Positions 12,983-53,209 of a stretch of 55,802 nucleotides of DNA are shown here, one piece after another. The notes under the pieces were generated by a model. The model was not told the DNA's origin. It worked only from the letters and a program-made list of their open reading frames with translations, and did no database searches. The stretch's first letter is position 1, and each line of letters opens with the position of its first letter. Source of the DNA: Anaerostipes sp. MSJ-23 (GTDB taxonomy: Bacteria; Bacillota; Clostridia; Lachnospirales; Lachnospiraceae); assembly GCF_018918155.1 (NCBI RefSeq), contig NZ_JAHLPY010000017.1:1-55802 (forward strand), written 5' to 3'. The position numbers and the translations under genes were made by a program.

Positions 12983-14809
12983 TTATTTTACTGTAATAGA
13001 TTTCACTGCACTGTATGCTCCATACAATTTTGTCTTTCCAACGCTCTTATATGAACGTACTCTTACATAATATTTCTTTTTTGATTTTAAACTCTTTATT
13101 GTCTTCTTGTAAGTCTTATAAGTTGTCACCGAATAAGTCTTAGCGCCTTTGAAGTTACTCTTTAATCCAACTTGTAACTGATATCCAGATGCCTGATTGT
13201 CTTTTGTCCACGATACATCTAATTTTTGTTTACCAGCCTTTACTTTTACATTCTGTTTCTTTGGTACTACCTTGATTGCTACTTTCTTTGTTTCTGTGCA
13301 AAAGCCTTCACCAAATGCAGTCACGGTAATTGTCGCAGATCCTGTTCCTTTGATAGTAACAACTCCCTGATCTGATACATCTGCAACTTTCTTATTGCTT
13401 GTTTTATAACTTAAAGTTGTTCCTTCTACAGATTTTGCTCCAAGATCTATTGCTTTATCTCCATATACTTTTGATATGCTTAATGATGTGGCCACAGAAA
13501 TATCTGTTGCTTTTTTAATAGATACCGAAAGTTTTACATCAGCATATTTCTCAGATTCAAGAGTGATTGTATAATCATCTCCGATTTCAAGACTCTTATC
13601 AAGAGTAAGAATACCATCTTTATAGCTATACAATGTTGGATCAATGACCTGAGCAGCTCTTCCTGCTCCTTTTGTTACTTTTGTAAGATTGTAATTTGCA
13701 TCTTTTGGTGCTCTGGAAGTATCAACTTTTACTTTTGTTCCACTTTCGCTATATGCTCCTTCAGATACTGTAATTTCCTGATTTTTGCTTAACAATGGTT
13801 TCACATAAAGGTTCGTATGAATCACAAGATCTTTTCCATCACATGCTGGTACTTGTGTAATACTTCCATCTCTTCCTTTTTCTTCATATGCATCCGTCTT
13901 TCTTAACAGATAAGTAATTTTTTTAATTGTCTTTCCATTCAGACCCTTTGTATGTGCATAAGCCACATGGTTTCCATGAGGTTCAGTAAATTCTCTTGCT
14001 GCAAAAGAAATTTCTTTTGGCTGAAGCCATAAGTTATCTTCATGAAGAAGACCATATTTCTCTCCATCAGAAGTTTCTAAAATAACCCCTTCCATACTTT
14101 TTTTTGTAACATAAGAAGGAAGATTTTCTACAGAAATCTGCCAGTTACCCCAGTTAGAAGTTGAAGTAATCGCTGCTGTTACTTCTGATTTTACTTCTGA
14201 TGTAGAAGTTGTGGCTTTAAATGTTCCATCTCCATTTAATTCTTTATATTCATCAAACGCACTGTCCGAGAATTTTGCATTTGCAAGATATTGATATACC
14301 GATAAATTTTTATCTTTATTTTGAGTATAAGCATTATAATACGCTTGATATAAAGCTACTGGAATACGAATTTGTACATCTGCAATGCCATTAATATTAA
14401 CACCCGTTGCCTCATCCCCAGTTTCATTATTCTTTACATTCTCTGTATAATAAGTTGTTGGAAACCCTTTGGATTTTGTTGTAGTCGCAGATGTAACAGC
14501 GTCATAGGATCCACCTGCATATTTTGCATCTACAATATCACCTTTGGATAAATCAAGACTTGTGATATTCACTGTCCTATTGACTTCTCCATAGTAATAA
14601 TCTGCATACTCCATGTTGACCGTCGCATAATAATAACCGTCAACTGCTTTTAATGTTTTTGGATCCTTTAATCCTGATGTCTGAGTCTCTTCTGCCTTTA
14701 CAATTGCCACACTGCTGTTAAATACAGCCGGTATTGAAACCGGACCTGTCATCATTGCTGCTGCAAGTGCTACTGTAAGACTCTTTTTCCACATTGTTGT
14801 TCTTCTCAT
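12983..14809 (-). CDS. Secreted Tp47-family protein with Big2-like and FN3-like C-terminal domains
   Basis: The 608-aa precursor has a signal peptide (about 1-39, cleavage near VKA). The next 70 residues (YATVNMEYADYYYGEV at 61-76, SYDAVTSAT at 101-109) resemble, from memory, the mature N-terminus of Treponema pallidum Tp47 (YATLSYADYWAGEL, FDAVSRAT), a lipoprotein first described as penicillin-binding. DAVTSAT also fits the pattern Asp-x-x-Ser/Thr-Gly/Ser-Ala-Thr of ApbE flavinylation sites, with Thr109 as the potential target. Later come a Big2-like domain (about 435-512) and an FN3-like domain (about 515-608). AGGAGG lies five bases before the start. It follows the flavinylation operon but has its own upstream region. 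The family match is fairly sure; flavinylation is a hypothesis. Confidence 0.72.
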   Translation of the reverse strand: MRRTTMWKKSLTVALAAAMMTGPVSIPAVFNSSVAIVKAEETQTSGLKDPKTLKAVDGYYYATVNMEYADYYYGEVNRTVNITSLDLSKGDIVDAKYAGGSYDAVTSATTTKSKGFPTTYYTENVKNNETGDEATGVNINGIADVQIRIPVALYQAYYNAYTQNKDKNLSVYQYLANAKFSDSAFDEYKELNGDGTFKATTSTSEVKSEVTAAITSTSNWGNWQISVENLPSYVTKKSMEGVILETSDGEKYGLLHEDNLWLQPKEISFAAREFTEPHGNHVAYAHTKGLNGKTIKKITYLLRKTDAYEEKGRDGSITQVPACDGKDLVIHTNLYVKPLLSKNQEITVSEGAYSESGTKVKVDTSRAPKDANYNLTKVTKGAGRAAQVIDPTLYSYKDGILTLDKSLEIGDDYTITLESEKYADVKLSVSIKKATDISVATSLSISKVYGDKAIDLGAKSVEGTTLSYKTSNKKVADVSDQGVVTIKGTGSATITVTAFGEGFCTETKKVAIKVVPKKQNVKVKAGKQKLDVSWTKDNQASGYQLQVGLKSNFKGAKTYSVTTYKTYKKTIKSLKSKKKYYVRVRSYKSVGKTKLYGAYSAVKSITVK

Positions 14810-14893
14810 GTGAACCTCCTTTAAAAATAAATCATTGTGCCTTGTACTTCGGCATAAAGTACGGAAATGCCTACATACATATTTATCTTTATC

Positions 14894-14911
14894 CTGATAA
14901 AACCTTATCAG
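14894..14911. promoter_or_regulatory. Inverted repeat upstream of the Tp47-like gene, possible operator
   Basis: CTGATAA (14894-14900) and TTATCAG (14905-14911) form a perfect 7-4-7 inverted repeat about 85 bases upstream of the start codon, near a possible -35 (TTGTAA on the minus strand). No T run follows, so it is more likely a protein-binding site than a terminator. Closer to the gene, GTACTT/AAGTAC and GGCAT/ATGCC arms (14844-14869) could form alternative hairpins in the leader. Confidence 0.45.
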
Positions 14912-14977
14912 AGATATCGATCATATTTTTACAATTTCAGGGAATAACGATAGTTTGTTTAGACTAACTTCATTGTT

Positions 14978-15002
14978 AAAAGCAAGCATCCAGATTGGAT
15001 GC
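14978..15002 (-). terminator. Terminator of the flavinylation operon
   Basis: GCATCCA (14986-14992) and TGGATGC (14996-15002) form a 7-bp stem with a 3-nt loop, followed on the minus strand by TTGCTTTT. It lies 15 bases after the polyferredoxin stop codon and separates that operon from the Tp47-like gene. Confidence 0.7.
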
Positions 15003-15016
15003 CACACTTTTTTATT

Positions 15017-15862
15017 TTACAAACTCTGCGCAAAAAGACACAGCGCAATAAACAATATAAGTTTTACAAAAACAAACAGTAATTCACTGCCCTTCCATCG
15101 TTTTCCTAAACCGAGATGAATATTTTGTTTGGGACAAACATCCACACACTGAAGGCAATGAATGCATTCTCCGCCATTTTTTTGATCCCTTTTGATTTGA
15201 TAATCAACAGGACATTTCATCTCGCATGCACGACATTTTGGAATACAGCTGCTTCGATCTCTATCAAGAACAGAAAACGGAAGAACTGGTAGCCATGCAA
15301 AAATTGCTCCCATAGGACAAAGATATTGGCAGAAAAATCTTTCTTTAAAGCACATACCCACCAGAATCAGTACAAAGATCACCCATCCCGTCAGATAACC
15401 GACATCTGGGATCTTTCCTGTGTACAACATGGAAAAAACTTCCCAAGGACTGGTTCCATGGAATTTTTTTGTAAATCCTAACCCGTAAATCAGCATTAGG
15501 ACAATTAATAACACATATTTTATTTTTTGAAGTTTTCTTCCGGTTTCCGCTGAAAACCACGGAAGTTTCTTCTTTCTTTTTAATTTCTTCTGAACCCACT
15601 GGGAAAGAGCAAACATTCCATCTCCCAATGTACCAAATGCACACGCATATCCACAAAAAAATCTTCCAAATAAAATGGTAAAACCACATAACGCAATGAA
15701 CATCACAAGAAACGCATTTTGTTCAATTGGCTGTCCCGCACGGATTTTTTCAATCACATACCGTACTCCTGAAAATGCGGATGTATAAAGAGCCGGCATC
15801 CAAAGGAAAAATACGATTTGTATCATTTGTCTTGTAAGGCGTCTAAGATCTCTTTTTTTCAT
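15017..15862 (-). CDS. Membrane polyferredoxin (NapH/NosR-like 4Fe-4S protein)
   Basis: The 281-aa protein has about five membrane segments and two kinds of cysteine clusters. Two CxxxC motifs at membrane ends (FFCGYACAFG near residue 70, FFCQYLCPMGA near 180) are the mark of NapH/NosR/RdxA-type proteins. Two 4Fe-4S ferredoxin motifs follow (CIPKCRACEMKCP and CIHCLQCVDVCP). These proteins carry electrons between the quinol or cytoplasmic side and outside partners. Only one nucleotide separates its ATG from the stop of the one-domain FMN protein, and AGGAGG lies inside that gene's last codons. It is the most likely membrane electron entry point for the flavin proteins. The family is clear; the electron donor is not. 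Confidence 0.88.
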   Translation of the reverse strand: MKKRDLRRLTRQMIQIVFFLWMPALYTSAFSGVRYVIEKIRAGQPIEQNAFLVMFIALCGFTILFGRFFCGYACAFGTLGDGMFALSQWVQKKLKRKKKLPWFSAETGRKLQKIKYVLLIVLMLIYGLGFTKKFHGTSPWEVFSMLYTGKIPDVGYLTGWVIFVLILVGMCFKERFFCQYLCPMGAIFAWLPVLPFSVLDRDRSSCIPKCRACEMKCPVDYQIKRDQKNGGECIHCLQCVDVCPKQNIHLGLGKRWKGSELLFVFVKLILFIALCLFAQSL

Positions 15863-15863
15863 T

Positions 15864-16283
15864 TTATGACGCCTCCTTTAATGCATTCTGCACCGCTGTA
15901 ATAATTCCCTTCGAACTATAAGTTGCTCCGCTGGCTACATCAACATTAGCTGTTTGTTTCTTTTTCATTGTCTCCATGATCTTTTTTGCATTATCTAAAT
16001 AAGCAGGATCTTCATTTTTTGCCTCTTTAATCTTAATATCTGAAATAGTTCCTCCTTTAATCGTAACACGAACGACAATGGTTCCTCCATATCCCTGTCC
16101 GCTTCCCTCATAAATACCATCTTTATAGGCAGCAGAAAGTTTCTGATTTTCAGCTTCAATTTTCGCTTCTTTCTGTGCACGCACTAATGCAATATTATGA
16201 TAAACCAAACAAATACAAAGAATCAAAGCAAGATTACACAAGCGCATAATAAAATGTTTATAATTTTTCAATTGAATTTTCAT
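15864..16283 (-). CDS. Membrane-anchored FMN-binding domain protein (one flavin site)
   Basis: The 139-aa protein has one N-terminal membrane segment (about residues 12-35) and one extracellular FMN-binding domain. The domain starts with AYKDGIYEGSGQGYGG and ends with the flavinylation motif DVASGATYSS, in which Thr121 should receive FMN by a phosphoester bond from ApbE. It is the small relay expected between the membrane polyferredoxin and the multi-domain protein encoded next door. The gene lies 13 nt after the four-domain gene and 1 nt before the polyferredoxin gene. Related domains are found in NqrC and RnfG. Confidence 0.88.
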   Translation of the reverse strand: MKIQLKNYKHFIMRLCNLALILCICLVYHNIALVRAQKEAKIEAENQKLSAAYKDGIYEGSGQGYGGTIVVRVTIKGGTISDIKIKEAKNEDPAYLDNAKKIMETMKKKQTANVDVASGATYSSKGIITAVQNALKEAS

Positions 16284-16296
16284 CTTATGCTATCCC

Positions 16297-17997
16297 CTAT
16301 TTTTCCATCTGTTGTATAACGTCTTGGTAAGCTTCCTTGATTGCTTTTGAAGAACAGGTTGCTCCACTGACAACATCACAATCTTCAATTTTCATACCAG
16401 ATTTCAATTGTTTAATAATTCCATTTCTTGCAAATTGAATATACTCATTGTTATAAGATGCTCCATCTCCAGAAGCTGTGATCTTATCAAAATCAATCAC
16501 CCCATCTGTAGATACCGGAACATTGATTGTCAGATTATATCGGCGAAAATCCAGCTCTTCATCTGGAACACAAACTGCTTTTGCTGTATAAACAGTACCA
16601 TCAGAATCTGGTTGATTATTATTGTTATTATTGTCGTTTTTGTTATTATTGTCGTTTTTGTTATTATTGTTATTATTGTCGTTTTTGTTATTATTGTTGT
16701 TGTCGTTTTTGTTATTATTGTTGTTATTGTTGCTATTGTCGTTTTTGTTGTTATCGTTATTATTTTTTTTATGATCGTCTTTCTTTGATAAAGCTTTTGT
16801 CAGTGCATTCCGAACTGCTGCCATAATTCCATGAGAACTATAGGTTGCTCCACTAACTGCATCTACTTTATTCTCATTTGCGGATTGTAAAGCAATAATA
16901 CTATATGGTACCTCCGCCCACGCCTTCTCAAAGAACTGCTTATCATCTTTTTCATTTTTCACAAGCGAAATAGCTACAATCTTACTGTACTTAATCGTAA
17001 CTTTTACAGTAATATTTCCACGGAACCCTTTTCCTGTGCCTTCATAAACACCATCTTTATAAGTTCCAGAAACATTTGGAATATTATTTTTATGTTGATT
17101 GCTATTGTTGTTATTATGATTGGAAGAGCTATCACTTGCACTATCGGAATCATTACCTACAACTGAACCATCAACAGCAGCTTTACTTAGTGCGTTTCGA
17201 ACTGCCTTAATAATTCCGTTCGAACTATAAGTTGCTCCACTAACCGCATCCACATTTGTTGTCTGTTTCTTGATCATTAATGGAAGCAGCGTTCCTTTTG
17301 CACGGTTAAAATATGCAGCATCATCATGACTCTCTAAGACCTTAATTGCTGTAATTTTTCCATTCTTGATTGTTACCTCAACCTTTACCGTTCCGTGATA
17401 TCCACTTGCAGACCCTGTAAATGTTCCATCTTTATATGTACCGGACTCTTTTACTTTACCAGCGCTTGCAGCAGAACCTTTTGAACCAGAATTCGCTGCT
17501 GCTTTTACAGAAGATTTATCAGTTTCTCCGGTTAATGCATTTTTTACAGCCTTAATAATTCCATTAGAACTATAAGTTGCCCCACTAACTACATCCACTT
17601 TTAATGACTGTTTTGCAAGAATACTCTTAATCACACCAGCAGATGCACGATTGAAAAAGGCTGCATCATCAGAGCTGCTTAATACCTTGATTGCAGTAAT
17701 TTTATGCGATTTTACGGTTACTGCAACTTTTACTTTTCCACGATATCCATTGGCTTCACCATGATATGTTCCATCTTTAATTTTACTTAAGTCAATATCT
17801 CCTACTTTTGCTTTTTTCGCTTTCTTCTTTGCGGTGGTTGTTGCTGCTTCCACCTGCTTTGTTTGGGCGTTTGGATTGGATTTTTTAACCTTCGGTGCTG
17901 TATAACCAAAAATACTGTTTCCTACCAAACTTATAACAAAAATGGCTGGTACAAACTGAATAAAATTAACTTTTTTCAACAATTCAATATGTCTCAT
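16297..17997 (-). CDS. Surface protein with four FMN-binding domains on an Asn-rich stalk
   Basis: The 566-aa protein has a membrane segment or signal at about 10-32 and a Lys/Ala-rich linker. Four FMN-binding domains follow, each ending in a flavinylation motif: SGAT with Thr141, Thr256, Thr385 and Thr547. The first three end in SGATYSS; the last ends in SGATCSS and is divergent, lacking the Gly-rich start. Ser-rich spacers separate domains 1-3, and a segment of about 50 residues of Asn, Lys and Asp (about 411-461) separates 3 from 4. Such serial flavins outside the membrane can pass electrons by hopping, like a multi-haem cytochrome. It is encoded between apbE and the one-domain FMN protein gene. 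Covalent loading by ApbE is inferred from the motifs. Confidence 0.9.
   Translation of the reverse strand: MRHIELLKKVNFIQFVPAIFVISLVGNSIFGYTAPKVKKSNPNAQTKQVEAATTTAKKKAKKAKVGDIDLSKIKDGTYHGEANGYRGKVKVAVTVKSHKITAIKVLSSSDDAAFFNRASAGVIKSILAKQSLKVDVVSGATYSSNGIIKAVKNALTGETDKSSVKAAANSGSKGSAASAGKVKESGTYKDGTFTGSASGYHGTVKVEVTIKNGKITAIKVLESHDDAAYFNRAKGTLLPLMIKKQTTNVDAVSGATYSSNGIIKAVRNALSKAAVDGSVVGNDSDSASDSSSNHNNNNSNQHKNNIPNVSGTYKDGVYEGTGKGFRGNITVKVTIKYSKIVAISLVKNEKDDKQFFEKAWAEVPYSIIALQSANENKVDAVSGATYSSHGIMAAVRNALTKALSKKDDHKKNNNDNNKNDNSNNNNNNNKNDNNNNNKNDNNNNNNKNDNNNKNDNNNNNNQPDSDGTVYTAKAVCVPDEELDFRRYNLTINVPVSTDGVIDFDKITASGDGASYNNEYIQFARNGIIKQLKSGMKIEDCDVVSGATCSSKAIKEAYQDVIQQMEK
16613..16770 (-). repeat. 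Asn/Asp/Lys-coding simple repeat in the FMN protein gene
   Basis: Irregular trinucleotide repeats with a recurring unit of about 18 bases (ttattattgtcgtttttg) code for the Asn-rich linker. All visible units are multiples of three, so length changes by slippage would keep the frame and alter only the linker length. Confidence 0.75.
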
Positions 17998-18014
17998 ATT
18001 CCTCTCTTCACTTT

Positions 18015-19082
18015 CTATTTATCTTTCACAACAGTATAGTTATAATCAGAAGTAAAATATTTTTGAATTCCTTGGCTAATATAAATTTTATCATTTTGAT
18101 CAACCAAGATCATTTGAAACTCCTTGGAGTGGTTTCTCCAAAATTGGATTGCTTTATCTCTTCCCATAATAAACAAAGATGTAGACAATGTATCTGCCAA
18201 CGTTCCATTTTTACTAATGATTGTTACAGATGTTAGATTCTTTCTAGATGGTTTTCCTGTAGAAGGATCTAAAATATGATGATAAACCGTACCATTCTTT
18301 TCAAAATAACGCTCATAAGCACCAGATGTGATGACAGACTCTCCCTTTGATTGATAAGCTCCAACCATTTCCATTGAATCATCCGGTGACTGAATTCCTA
18401 CTTTCCAACGGCTTCCATCTGTTTTTGTTCCAATTGATTGAACATTTCCACCAAGACTAATCACACCATGTTTGACTCCTTCTTTTTCCATCAGCTCTGC
18501 TATCTTTTGAGAAGTATATCCCTTGGCAATTCCACCAAGATCAATCTCTATCCCATGTTCCAATGTAACAACACGGCTTTTTTTATTAATTTTTATATAT
18601 TGTGTTCCCATCTGATTTTCCCGAATTTCATTAATTTCTTCATCTGTTGGAACCTTATATTTTTCTGTTGTAAATCCCCAAAGATCCATCAATGGATAAA
18701 TTGTAATATCAAATGCTTTTCCTGTTACCTGATTCATCCGTTTTCCATACTCAATCAAATTTAAAGTTTCTTCTGATACTTTTAACTTCTTTTTCTGATT
18801 CAACTGATAAATCTCACTTTTTTTATTCCCGACGGACCATAGCTGATCAAGCCTCTGAATTTCGGCCTTTGCATCTTCCAAAACAGATTTTGCATTTTTA
18901 CCATATGCTTTTAAAGTCATATAAGTATCCATTGCAAATACATCAATAGAAGCTTCTTCTTCACTGGTTTTTTTCTCTGTTACTGCCTGTTTTTTCTGAT
19001 TCTGCTCACAACCAGTTAGTACAAAAATGCACATAATCCACAACATAAGAATGCCTGCACATTTTCTTATTTTTATTTTCAT
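18015..19082 (-). CDS. apbE: FAD:protein FMN transferase (ApbE), lipoprotein
   Basis: ApbE splits FAD and attaches FMN to a threonine in SGAT-type motifs. The 355-aa precursor has a lipoprotein signal with a clear lipobox (VLTGC), so it acts outside the membrane. Family motifs are DLGGIAKGYTSQK, HGVISLGGNVQSIG, SGAYERYF, HHILDPSTGKP and the magnesium-binding segment GTLADTLSTSLFIMG. The start at 19082 is chosen because GGAGG lies five bases upstream; the TTG four codons earlier is part of that site. It is the first gene of the operon and has about five target sites in the two following genes. An operator-like palindrome lies on the promoter. Confidence 0.94.
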   Translation of the reverse strand: MKIKIRKCAGILMLWIMCIFVLTGCEQNQKKQAVTEKKTSEEEASIDVFAMDTYMTLKAYGKNAKSVLEDAKAEIQRLDQLWSVGNKKSEIYQLNQKKKLKVSEETLNLIEYGKRMNQVTGKAFDITIYPLMDLWGFTTEKYKVPTDEEINEIRENQMGTQYIKINKKSRVVTLEHGIEIDLGGIAKGYTSQKIAELMEKEGVKHGVISLGGNVQSIGTKTDGSRWKVGIQSPDDSMEMVGAYQSKGESVITSGAYERYFEKNGTVYHHILDPSTGKPSRKNLTSVTIISKNGTLADTLSTSLFIMGRDKAIQFWRNHSKEFQMILVDQNDKIYISQGIQKYFTSDYNYTVVKDK

Positions 19083-19174
19083 GATTGCCTCCAAATATAA
19101 GCTAAAATATCTTTTTTCCCATAAGTTTAAGGCCGAACAATATTCTCATTGTCAACCTTTTACCCTGTGTTTAT

Positions 19175-19226
19175 TTAGTTAGCAAATGCTAACTAATATA
19201 TTATCGAAAATTCTTTCTTATTACAA
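19175..19226 (-). promoter_or_regulatory. Promoter with a DtxR-like palindromic operator upstream of apbE
   Basis: On the minus strand, TTGTAA (plus positions 19221-19226) and TAATAT (19198-19203) are 17 nt apart. Immediately downstream of the -10, half-sites TTAGTTAGCA (19175-19184) and TGCTAACTAA (19187-19196) form a perfect 10-2-10 inverted repeat that would cover the transcription start. The TTAG...CTAA form recalls operators of DtxR/IdeR/MntR metal-dependent repressors. A second possible -35 (TTGACA at 19150-19155) lies further downstream. Repression by a metal sensor is inferred, and no such regulator gene is in the window. Confidence 0.65.
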
Positions 19227-19383: not shown

Positions 19384-20553
19384 TTAGTTTCCGTTTTGCC
19401 ACTTAAAAAATGACAATCCATAATAACCATTTGTTGATTTTCCATTTTTAGAAACTTTAATATAATAAGTAGACTTTCCCTTTGGGAGCTTTATCATTTT
19501 TTCATCAAATTTTCTAACCTTTATGGTTTTTATTGATTTCTTTCTTCCTTTTTTATAAACAGTAAAGTCAAACCCACCTGTCATTGTTCCACTTTCAAAA
19601 TTTAATACATATCTAACTTTTTTTGACGGAACCGTTATCTTATACCATCTCGATGCCTTTTCATTTTGTGTATAAATTTCATCTGTTCCATCTTCGTTTT
19701 TAATATTTTTAGCTTTTGATTTTTTATATACAACCGCCTTCTTTTTATAACTTTCTTTTTCATAACTAACAGATACAGCCTGTGATGATGGTGATTTTAA
19801 GCATAAACGATACTCTCCCCCAGAAAGAGCATAATAAATCTGGTCATCTGAAGATTTTCCACCTTTAACTTTTCCTGTACTTCCAATCTTTTGCCATTTT
19901 CCCTTCTTCTTCTTTTCAATTTTTACAAAAGTATCACCTTTTTGATATACAGAATCTATTTCAAAACTAACCAGTGCACGATCTTTTACTTTAAATGCAT
20001 GATAAGTATAAGATCCCGTTCCTTTTTGAATATATGTTTTATTTTGAGAAAGTTTTCCAAAACTGTCTTTTAATACCCAAGATGCAAGATAAGCTTCCTG
20101 TCCTTTCGGAATTCTGGTATAAAATACATCCCCAGCTTTTACTCTAGTCATATATTCAATTCCTTCCGATGCTGTACCCTGGGTTTTTATTTTCATATTA
20201 CTATCATAAAAATAGATCTTTGATTTTCCCCCACACTCTAACGAAAAATTCAAATAGCCATCATCCATAACCATAATTTTAACAAGCTGATTGTTTGCTT
20301 TAAAGTTCTTATTATAATATTTAATTCCACCAGTGAGAAGATAAACAGTTGCTTCTTCTGTGTCAAACTGATAAGCTTTTATTTCTTTTTGATTCCACTC
20401 TTCTGGCATAACATTCTTTTTACAATTCTTCGTCTTTACCTTCTGTATTACAGATGATGTTGATGCCTTTACTTTGGCAGATGATAATGCCATAATAAGA
20501 CCAATTCCCAAAGCCAGCACAACTCTTGCGATCTTCTTCCATATTTTCTTCAT
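19384..20553 (-). CDS. Secreted protein of unknown function with beta-sandwich repeats
   Basis: The 389-aa precursor has a signal peptide (about 1-30, ending SSAKVKA). The mature protein is rich in Lys, Tyr, Ser and Gly and seems to hold three beta-rich segments. The last two have the WYKITVPSKKVRYVLNFESG and LPKGKSTYYIKVSKNG patterns seen in bacterial pre-peptidase C-terminal-like domains. No enzyme motif is visible. AAAGGAG precedes the start. It is a single gene between two terminator regions, upstream of the flavin operon but separated from it by a strong terminator. A surface or matrix role is a guess. Confidence 0.6.
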   Translation of the reverse strand: MKKIWKKIARVVLALGIGLIMALSSAKVKASTSSVIQKVKTKNCKKNVMPEEWNQKEIKAYQFDTEEATVYLLTGGIKYYNKNFKANNQLVKIMVMDDGYLNFSLECGGKSKIYFYDSNMKIKTQGTASEGIEYMTRVKAGDVFYTRIPKGQEAYLASWVLKDSFGKLSQNKTYIQKGTGSYTYHAFKVKDRALVSFEIDSVYQKGDTFVKIEKKKKGKWQKIGSTGKVKGGKSSDDQIYYALSGGEYRLCLKSPSSQAVSVSYEKESYKKKAVVYKKSKAKNIKNEDGTDEIYTQNEKASRWYKITVPSKKVRYVLNFESGTMTGGFDFTVYKKGRKKSIKTIKVRKFDEKMIKLPKGKSTYYIKVSKNGKSTNGYYGLSFFKWQNGN

Positions 20554-50722: not shown

Positions 50723-53209
50723 ATGGACGAGAACACAATTTTTGATAAAGTTCATGACATTGATCTGAAGAAGACAATGGAAACATCATACATTAATTAT
50801 GCGATGAGCGTTATTGTATCCAGAGCTCTTCCAGATGTACGGGATGGTCTGAAACCTGTACAGAGAAGAATTCTTTATGCAATGATTGAATTAAATAATG
50901 GTCCGGATAAACCACATCGTAAATGTGCCCGTATCGTTGGTGATGCCATGGGTAAATATCATCCACATGGTGATAGTTCTATTTATGGGGCATTAGTTAA
51001 TATGGCTCAGGATTGGTCTACCAGATATCCGCTGGTAGATGGACATGGAAACTTTGGTTCTGTTGATGGGGATGGAGCGGCAGCTATGCGTTATACAGAA
51101 GCAAGGCTTAGCAAAATTTCCATGGAGTTATTGGCAGATATTAATAAAAATACCGTAGATTTTGTACCAAACTTTGATGAAACAGAGAAAGAGCCTTCCG
51201 TACTTCCATCAAGATTTCCAAATTTGCTTGTAAATGGTACACAAGGTATTGCAGTTGGTATGGCAACGAATATTCCTCCGCATAATCTGAGAGAAGTAAT
51301 TGATGCAGTTATTAAAATTATTGACAATCGTATACAAGAGGATCGTACAACGACAATGGAGGAATTGCTGGATGTTGTAAAAGGTCCAGACTTTCCAACA
51401 GGAGCGACAATTCTCGGAAGAAAAGGAATTGAAGAGGCCTATCGTACGGGAAGAGGAAAAATTAAAGTACGTGCTGTTACAGATATTGAGGCGATGCCAA
51501 ATGGAAAACAGAGGATTATTGTAACTGAGCTTCCATATATGGTCAATAAGGCGCGTCTGATTGAGAAAATTGCAGCGCTTGTAAGAGAAAAACGAATTGA
51601 TGGTATTACAGAACTTCGAGACGAGTCGGATCGGAGCGGTATGAGAATTTGTATTGAACTTCGAAGAGATGCAAATGCAAATGTAATTTTAAATCAATTA
51701 TATAAACATACACAGCTACAAGATACTTTTGGTGTTATTATGTTAGCATTAGTTAACGGTGAGCCGAAAGTATTAAATCTTTCCGAAATGCTTGGTAATT
51801 ATTTAAAACACCAGGAAGATGTAGTAACAAGAAGAACTAAATATGAGTTGAATAAAGCAGAAGAACGTGCTCACATTTTAGAAGGGTTGTTGATTGCTCA
51901 AGATCATATTGATGAAGTTATTAAAATTATTCGTGGAGCATCTAATATTCAGGCAGCAAAAGCAGAATTAATGGAAAAATTTGCACTGACAGATGCACAG
52001 GCACAGGCAATTGTAGATATGCGTCTGCGTGCTTTAAATGGTTTAGAAAGAGCAAAACTTGAAAAAGAATATAATGAGTTGATGACTCGTATTAAAGAAT
52101 TGAAAGAGATTCTTGGAGATGAAAAAGTTCTTCTTGGAGTTATTAAGGATGAATTAATCTTAATTCGTGATAAATATGGGGATGACAGAAGAACAAAAAT
52201 TGGCTTTGATGTGGATGATATTTCGATTGAAGATCTTATCTCAAAAGAAAATACAGTTATTACTATGACAAAACTTGGTTATATCAAGAGAATGACCGTT
52301 GATAATTTTAAGAGTCAGCGTAGAGGAGGAAAAGGCATTAAGGGAATGCAGACCATCGATGAAGACTATATTGAAGAGCTATTTATGACTACAACCCATC
52401 ACTATATTATGTTCTTTACAAATCTTGGTCGTGTTTATCGATTAAAAGCCTATGAAATTCCGGAAAGCAGCAGGACTGCCAGAGGAAGTGCTATTGTCAA
52501 TCTTCTTCAGTTACAACCAGGAGAAAAGATTACAGCAGTCATTCCGATCGAGGATTATGAAGAAGGAAAATACTTAATGATGGCAACGAAGAATGGTATT
52601 GTTAAAAAATCTTCGATTATGGATTTTGCAAATATAAGAAAAACTGGTCTTGCAGCGATTACATTGAAAGATGACGATCAGTTAATTGAAGTTAAGTTTA
52701 CAGATAATGAAAAGGATATCTTTCTTGTAACAAAAAATGGACAGTGTATCCGTTTCCATGAAAAAGATGTTCGTTGTATGGGACGTACGGCGATGGGTGT
52801 ACGTGGTATTAATCTGAGTGATAATGACGAAGTGATTGGAATGCAGCTTGACTGTCAGGGAGAAGCATTATTAATTGTTTCCGCAAATGGAATGGGAAAA
52901 AGGACAATGATGAGTGAGTTTACTTCCCAGCATAGAGGCGGAAAAGGTGTTAAATGCTATAAGATTACAGAAAAGACAGGAGATGTTGTTGGAGTAAAAG
53001 CCGTTGATGAAAATAATGAAATTATGATGATCACAACGGAAGGAATTATTATTCGTATGAGTGTAGACAGTATTTCTGTTCTTGGAAGAAATACATCTGG
53101 TGTGAAGGTAATGAATGTAGATGATGATGTTCAGGTTGCAAGCATTGCAAAAGTCCGGGAAGATGTAGAAGAAGATAATGAAGCAGAAATAAAAGAAAAC
53201 GAACAATAG
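50723..53209 (+). CDS. gyrA: DNA gyrase subunit A
   Basis: The 828-aa subunit has the breakage-reunion domain with catalytic Tyr124 in [10 protein letters not shown] and the quinolone-determining region [13 protein letters not shown] (residues 80-92). Ser85 and Gly89 correspond to E. coli Ser83 and Asp87; Gly at the second place differs from the usual acidic residue. The C-terminal beta-pinwheel carries the GyrA box [11 protein letters not shown] and a second copy, [10 protein letters not shown]. The end is acidic. GGAAGGAAG precedes the start and a strong terminator follows. Confidence 0.97.

Follow-up and report, generated by a model that had tools for sequence, protein, structure and literature searches.

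A multi-flavin locus with a Tp47-fold partner and a putative iron operator in Anaerostipes sp. MSJ-23 and its relatives

The five genes and their products

We analysed a stretch of 55,802 nucleotides from Anaerostipes sp. MSJ-23 (Lachnospiraceae; contig NZ_JAHLPY010000017.1), hereafter the window, and focused on five genes that run along its minus strand from 19094 down to 12983. They encode the flavin transferase ApbE, a protein with four domains of the type that binds flavin mononucleotide (FMN), a membrane protein with one such domain, a NapH-like polyferredoxin and a secreted protein that we call P1 (Table 1). A preliminary description of the locus had named genes of these kinds in this order, and all five are present as stated, with Pfam supporting the family assignment of the first four. 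The first four genes are separated by gaps of 17, 13 and 1 bp, and 207 bp lie ahead of P1; because this wide gap comes with a terminator-like hairpin and a one-mismatch copy of the operator described below, P1 is probably a transcription unit of its own, apart from the apbE operon. For apbE, the ATG at 19082 is a more likely start than the TTG at 19094, as it is preceded by GGAGG.

Table 1. Features of the locus, with window coordinates.
Feature	Position	Strand	Evidence
Operator palindrome TTAGTTAGCATTTGCTAACTAA, core GTTAG-N6-CTAAC at 19178-19193	19175..19196	-	
apbE, extracytosolic FAD (flavin adenine dinucleotide):protein FMN transferase, lipoprotein	18015..19094	-	PF02424 E=1.4e-86, lipobox-like LTGC
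Multi-flavinylated protein, 566 aa, N-terminal hydrophobic segment, four FMN_bind domains	16297..17997	-	PF04205
Membrane-anchored single FMN_bind protein, 139 aa, one hydrophobic segment	15864..16283	-	PF04205 E=6.7e-17
NapH-like membrane polyferredoxin, 281 aa	15017..15862	-	PF12801, PF00037, Cys motifs
Terminator-like hairpin between NapH-like gene and P1	14975..15012	-	-15.4 kcal/mol, z -4.88
Second operator copy upstream of P1, one mismatch, GTTAG-N6-CAAAC	14953..14968	-	
P1, 608 aa, secreted, N-terminal signal-like segment, Tp47-fold domain at about residues 45-347, further domains, C-terminal fn3	12983..14809	-	

ApbE scores 290.8 bits against PF02424 (cut-off 25.6), its LTGC motif suggests extracytosolic targeting, and the genome has one further ApbE match. 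FMN_bind (PF04205) matches four stretches of the next gene (E=1.5e-56), and each of the five FMN domains of the locus carries a D-x-x-S-G-A-T motif, matching the published flavinylation consensus D-x-x-[S/T]-G-A-[S/T] (PMC12052999). The predicted acceptor threonines are residues 141, 256, 385 and 547 of the four-FMN protein and, within DVASGAT, residue 121 of the single-FMN protein. With its four domains, four motifs and N-terminal hydrophobic segment, the former falls in the class of multi-flavinylated proteins, its nearest solved domain being domain 1 of CbFMN4 (PDB 8p2b, E=6.8e-9). The whole genome holds six FMN_bind matches, five of them in the locus; the sixth is RnfG, in an rnf-type operon apart from it (neighbouring genes named by eye).

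The NapH-like protein matches Fer4_5 (the NapH type, PF12801; 43.9 bits, cut-off 22) and Fer4 (PF00037), and it carries two CX3C and two 4Fe-4S motifs, with cysteine patterns CX3CX2CX3CP and CX2CX2CX3CP. It misses the NCBIfam equivalog cut-off for NapH proper, the nitrate reductase subunit (76.9 bits vs 234), and the NapH/MauN subfamily cut-off (78 bits vs 213.05), and its match to TIGR02163 (E=7.8e-22) lies under the curated cut-off; a PF12801 protein encoded beside FMN_bind and ApbE is, in contrast, the arrangement of NapH-like flavinylation systems. The ApbE lipoprotein, the four plus one predicted flavinylation sites and the polyferredoxin of the preliminary description are thus all borne out by the sequence, and the gene content supports the flavin-based extracytosolic electron transfer that it had suggested, with quinol or ferredoxin as possible donors to the NapH-like protein. 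Flavin-based extracellular electron transfer in Listeria involves PplA and Ndh2. The window shares with that system an extracellular FMN protein and ApbE but differs in that the PplA model reaches 24.7 bits, far below its cut-off of 325.

Tp47 is a major lipoprotein antigen of Treponema pallidum, known as a penicillin-binding protein, and penicillin binding or beta-lactamase activity has been ascribed to it. The assignment of P1 to the Tp47 family appears right at the level of fold, where profiles of the P1 family and a structural model agree on the superfamily, but not beyond: P1 alone has no Tp47 match among Pfam and PDB sequences and falls outside Pfam PBP-Tp47_a and PBP-Tp47_c. Across the P1 family, PF14889 matches five of 35 members at E 0.01 or better. 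Tp47 itself (TP0574, PDB 1o75, PF14888/PF14889) is a lipoprotein, whereas P1 is secreted and ends in fn3. We rejected this C-terminus as a link, fn3 being a common module; it is mainly through the fn3 end that full-length P1 matches all 11 of the 11 genomes of the genus.

We also considered P1 as a flavinylated ApbE substrate and dropped the idea because D-x-x-[ST]-G-A-[ST] is absent from all 42 Tp47-fold domains. A related motif, [DE]-x-x-[ST]-[STR]-[AVPS]-[TN], is present in every one of the 42, and the position of the consensus Gly is held by Ser (31 domains), Arg (7) or Thr (4). By profile comparison, the P1 domain and FMN_bind are unrelated (hhalign, 1.8%), and the fold matches listed for the P1 model include no FMN_bind structure, though a distant link is still conceivable.

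Opposite the Asn-rich linker of the four-FMN protein, the plus strand holds two open reading frames (ORFs) of 126 and 99 amino acids (16408-16826) that look spurious. Upstream of apbE, a secreted-looking protein of 389 amino acids with no Pfam match is encoded on the minus strand (19384-20553); at its place, the relative G005 has three similar ORFs in tandem (L038 12776-16312, by eye).

Linkage of P1-type and flavin genes

The full operon is present in three of 11 genomes of the genus, syntenic in the two others besides our own, and absent from eight. Of the 299 family genomes searched, 27 have a P1 domain (profile A3) and 30 a NapH-like protein (E 1e-30 or better). FMN_bind is found at the P1 locus in 25 of the 27, the exceptions being G213 and G146, so the refuting condition set by the preliminary description, a lack of conserved linkage, failed. 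At an assumed chance of 11% per locus, 25 of 27 would have p ~3e-22, a rough bound that ignores relatedness. With its synteny in the genus and the recurrence of its linkage in the family, the operon is more than a chance arrangement. Seen from the other side, the stretch fetched around NapH also holds a P1- or Tp47-type gene in 21 of 30 genomes, and four of the remaining nine encode a NapH-FMN fusion protein instead. At least one place was fetched per P1 or NapH genome of the family, with the secondary places G020:C71, G181:C7, G081:C24 and G128:C33 left out; P1 was counted with P1N_2, a profile iterated on the family loci, and the assignment of anchors and of types of domain arrangement relied in part on reading by eye.

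Beyond the family, a search of 295 genomes at the level of the order gave 10 that match the 35-row profile. A scan of named genomes returned 55 loci, with Anaerobutyricum hallii, Blautia, Lachnoanaerobaculum, Oribacterium, Catonella, Mogibacterium, Thomasclavelia and Ruminococcus among their sources, and 54 of the loci have a P1-type ORF; 44 of these 54 have FMN_bind, 48 have either FMN_bind or the flavinylation motif in the P1-type protein, and six have no link. One Synergistales record is also among the sources, its locus without a flavin link. Members were confirmed by similarity to P1, and the set leans to close relatives because the scan used only eight of the 35 alignment rows.

Pooling gives 87 P1-type loci, 78 without near-identical ones and 72 at less than 90% identity, of which 68 were found via P1. 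FMN_bind occurs in 66 of the 78, FMN_bind or the motif in 70, NapH in 42, apbE in 42 and none of these in seven. As four of the 78 entered through NapH, we regard the 68 P1-led loci, which differ by more than 10%, as the fair set, and there the counts are 57, 61, 38, 39 and seven. The nearest FMN_bind match, fusions counted, lies within 4.5 kb of the P1-type gene, at a median of 1.5 kb (73 loci, duplicates included), and P1-bearing genomes have from one to 12 FMN_bind matches. In some relatives the FMN_bind and Tp47-fold domains are fused in one polypeptide. A further apparent fusion, of FMN to fn3 in G010 (L039 1-483, contig C47), is probably an assembly join, as the contig opens within an FMN domain and the frame jumps close to that point into the terminal fn3 part of a P1-type gene.

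The donor beside P1 is not always NapH-like. Some P1-type genes of relatives adjoin a membrane protein with a C-terminal FMN domain; in the three of these proteins that were scanned, matches to MamZ (three of three) and MsrQ (one of three) all fall below cut-offs, Pfam did not report PF01794 for the two scanned with it, and in a structural model the membrane part is closest to STEAP2/4/1. The likeness to MsrQ-like systems (PMC8238504) and to STEAP/Dcytb metalloreductases thus lies in the P1-type loci of relatives, whereas the window has a NapH-like donor instead. The earlier statement that no cytochrome is involved is accurate for this locus but may not extend to those relatives whose membrane FMN protein is modelled like haem b reductases.

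The operator and its regulon

Just downstream of the -10-like GATAATAT, read by eye, stands the palindrome TTAGTTAGCATTTGCTAACTAA, of which the genome has no second copy even when three mismatches are allowed. Its core, GTTAG-N6-CTAAC, recurs upstream of a cluster gene in the pooled loci, perfectly in 42 of 78 and with at most one mismatch in 63. As controls, 29 other orderings of the half-sites gave at most one perfect site and seven within one mismatch, and other spacings from 2 to 10 gave at most one perfect site; at spacings 2 and 10, 14 and 17 of the 78 loci came within one mismatch, but only 0 and 1 were perfect. A perfect copy lies within 300 bp upstream of 35/79 P1-type and 14/41 apbE genes, compared with 1/101 FMN genes, 0/38 NapH genes and 4/672 other ORFs, and in the stricter P1-led set the counts are 29/69, 14/38, 1/90, 0/36 and 3/569. 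ORFs in this control came from a simple caller rather than a gene finder, and any lying 600 bp or less from a cluster gene were excluded (154 in the P1-led set). The window holds a third near-copy, with one mismatch, at 51742-51757.

Our genome has ten perfect sites, against two for the reversed pattern. Six precede a DUF3793-flavodoxin pair, feoA-feoA-feoB, divergent dtxR and short fur-like genes, an Nramp gene, a genuine Tp47 gene and the present operon; the other four stand ahead of, or close to, genes for an AGCS-type symporter, enolase, an ABC exporter and a methyltransferase (most of these named by eye). In five relatives there are 35 perfect sites (G005 14, G242 4, G195 6, G163 7, G112 4; reversed pattern 4, 3, 5, 2 and 2), of which 30 were examined, counting four at known P1 or FMN loci and leaving out four in G195 and one in G112. 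Sixteen of the 30 precede feoA, DUF3793-flavodoxin, dtxR/fur, Nramp, Tp47, ZupT-like transporters or P1/FMN genes; 14 precede none of these kinds, and three of the 14 stand before enolase. The operator is thus common to feoAB, a metal transporter and a regulator gene, as in an iron regulon of the DtxR type, and flavodoxin, ferrous transporters and an iron repressor together are a usual iron-starvation set. The half-site presumably resembles the DtxR consensus, and the repressor at these operators is probably of the DtxR type, though it may be Fur.

Several of these places deserve a mention of their own. A compact iron region of our genome (G000 C3:177943-183906, L232) has three operator copies among genes for DUF3793, flavodoxin, a small protein, FeoA, a FeoA-like protein, FeoB, a Cys-rich small protein, a DtxR-family protein (C3:182917-183315) and a short Fur-like protein. 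The genuine Tp47 (G000 C2:224820-226822, L237; PF14889 2.3e-66, PF14888 2.3e-74, with fn3) begins about 40 bp behind a perfect operator, and its neighbours, named by eye, are a YibE/F-like gene and a two-component system, with no FMN gene seen within the 7 kb read. The putative iron operator GTTAG-N6-CTAAC also stands upstream of enolase in four genomes, our own (G000 C23:31215-31230), G005, G163 and G112 (L261, L268, L270).

A proposed role in iron assimilation

We suspect that the locus encodes a flavin-based extracellular ferric reductase, assimilatory and induced by iron starvation, with a Tp47-fold protein at its outer end, and we hold this to be fairly probable, if well short of certain. 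The proposal builds on gene content, motifs, the modelled fold, linkage, fusions and the shared operator. When iron is plentiful, a DtxR-type repressor on GTTAG-N6-CTAAC operators would silence the apbE-multiFMN-FMN-NapH operon as well as P1 in its own unit; under iron shortage, both would be expressed alongside FeoAB, the Nramp transporter and flavodoxin. Electrons would then pass from a cytosolic or membrane donor through the Fe-S clusters of the NapH-like protein to the single-FMN protein and on to the four-FMN arm, which would extend into the wall and whose FMNs ApbE would attach. P1, as the outermost partner, may present the flavins with ferric iron, whether free, complexed or haem-like, or dock the arm on it, and the Fe2+ released would be taken up through FeoB or Nramp. 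We place iron in the role of substrate on account of the regulon and, weakly, of the STEAP-like fold of the alternative donor; for P1, binding ferric iron or haem, docking the flavin arm, or something else are all possible tasks.

The preliminary description had left the acceptor open between ferric iron and an organic electron sink. Under the latter reading, excess reductant would be discharged by respiration or fermentation to an outside acceptor (ferric minerals, quinones or organic compounds), with P1 as an adhesin or acceptor binder and the iron operator setting the timing only. A role in serving respiratory oxidoreductases is assumed for many NapH-like systems elsewhere and longer-distance transfer has been proposed for multi-flavinylated proteins (both PMC8238504), and surface domains occur in some large P1-type proteins, with FIVAR in L111 (below cut-off in L113) and choline-binding repeats in L137. 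No extracellular reductase gene was identified among the five genes, however, and an operator shared with feoAB, Nramp, flavodoxin and dtxR/fur is the pattern expected of an assimilation system; we therefore favour iron assimilation and consider the sink unlikely.

The shared operator would also fit acquisition of haem or host iron proteins, in which haem or haemoproteins are bound by P1-type surface proteins and their iron is released through reduction by the flavins. The Shr-like haemoglobin-interacting domain PF07550 scores above cut-off in three of the seven P1/Tp47-type proteins scanned (L111, L113, L129), but Pfam does not report it for the P1 of the window and it may be a general surface module, so that we think this version very improbable. 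A similarly small chance goes to P1 and Tp47-type proteins being iron-starvation proteins of the cell wall, penicillin-binding and peptidoglycan-related, which share regulon and neighbourhood while standing outside electron transfer. The Pfam families do bear the name of penicillin-binding protein Tp47 domains, and the genuine Tp47 of our genome stands behind the operator with no FMN gene beside it in the 7 kb read; fusions of FMN_bind to Tp47-fold domains and the coupling of P1-type genes to two different membrane donors argue the other way.

Parts of the proposed ferric reductase are familiar. NapH-like flavinylation clusters, of which 539 encode the FMN domain in a gene of its own (Meheust et al. 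2021, PMC8238504), and multi-flavinylated proteins are already published, and the description of the wire as a distinct route was overstated for that reason. The window resembles the former in its PF12801 membrane Fe-S protein, FMN_bind partner and ApbE, and adds a multi-flavin arm, a Tp47-fold partner and the putative iron operator, a combination undescribed in the available text of PMC8238504, whose main text lacks the word Tp47. With the latter (PMC8238504, PMC11334425; CbFMN4/SaFMN3, PMC10339131) it shares the string of FMN_bind domains, the extracytosolic location and a nearby apbE; their function is called unclear in the available text of those papers, whereas the operator of the window points to iron. 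Links to iron uptake are likewise published for MsrQ-like, PepSY-like and P19 flavinylated systems (PMC8238504, PMC11334425, PMC10339131, PMC4767422). In the open-licence literature searched, we found no text joining Tp47 to flavin electron transfer.

A comparable pair may exist in T. pallidum. TP0572 is tabled as 'FMN-binding domain protein, putative membrane protein' (622652-623734, 1083 bp; PMC5607219), and TPANIC_0574 is named as Tp47 (PMC5956850); TP0572 and TP0574 are two locus numbers apart, and their pairing and size class are those of the lipoprotein and membrane-FMN pairs met in this analysis, which suggests, without proving, such a pair in the spirochaete. We tentatively extend this, although we would sooner expect to be wrong, to the Tp47 fold being a class of outer partners for flavin-based iron acquisition, served by NapH-like or STEAP/MsrQ/MamZ-like donors, with Tp47 at root a redox or iron-handling partner. 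The analysis joins three subjects kept apart in the literature searched: multi-flavinylated surface proteins, NapH-like donors, whose reactions are mostly unknown in the available text of that literature, and the Tp47 fold. The operator makes the choice between ferric iron and an organic sink testable in culturable gut bacteria such as Anaerostipes and Anaerobutyricum hallii, and it turns the role of Tp47-type proteins into a proposal that can be checked.

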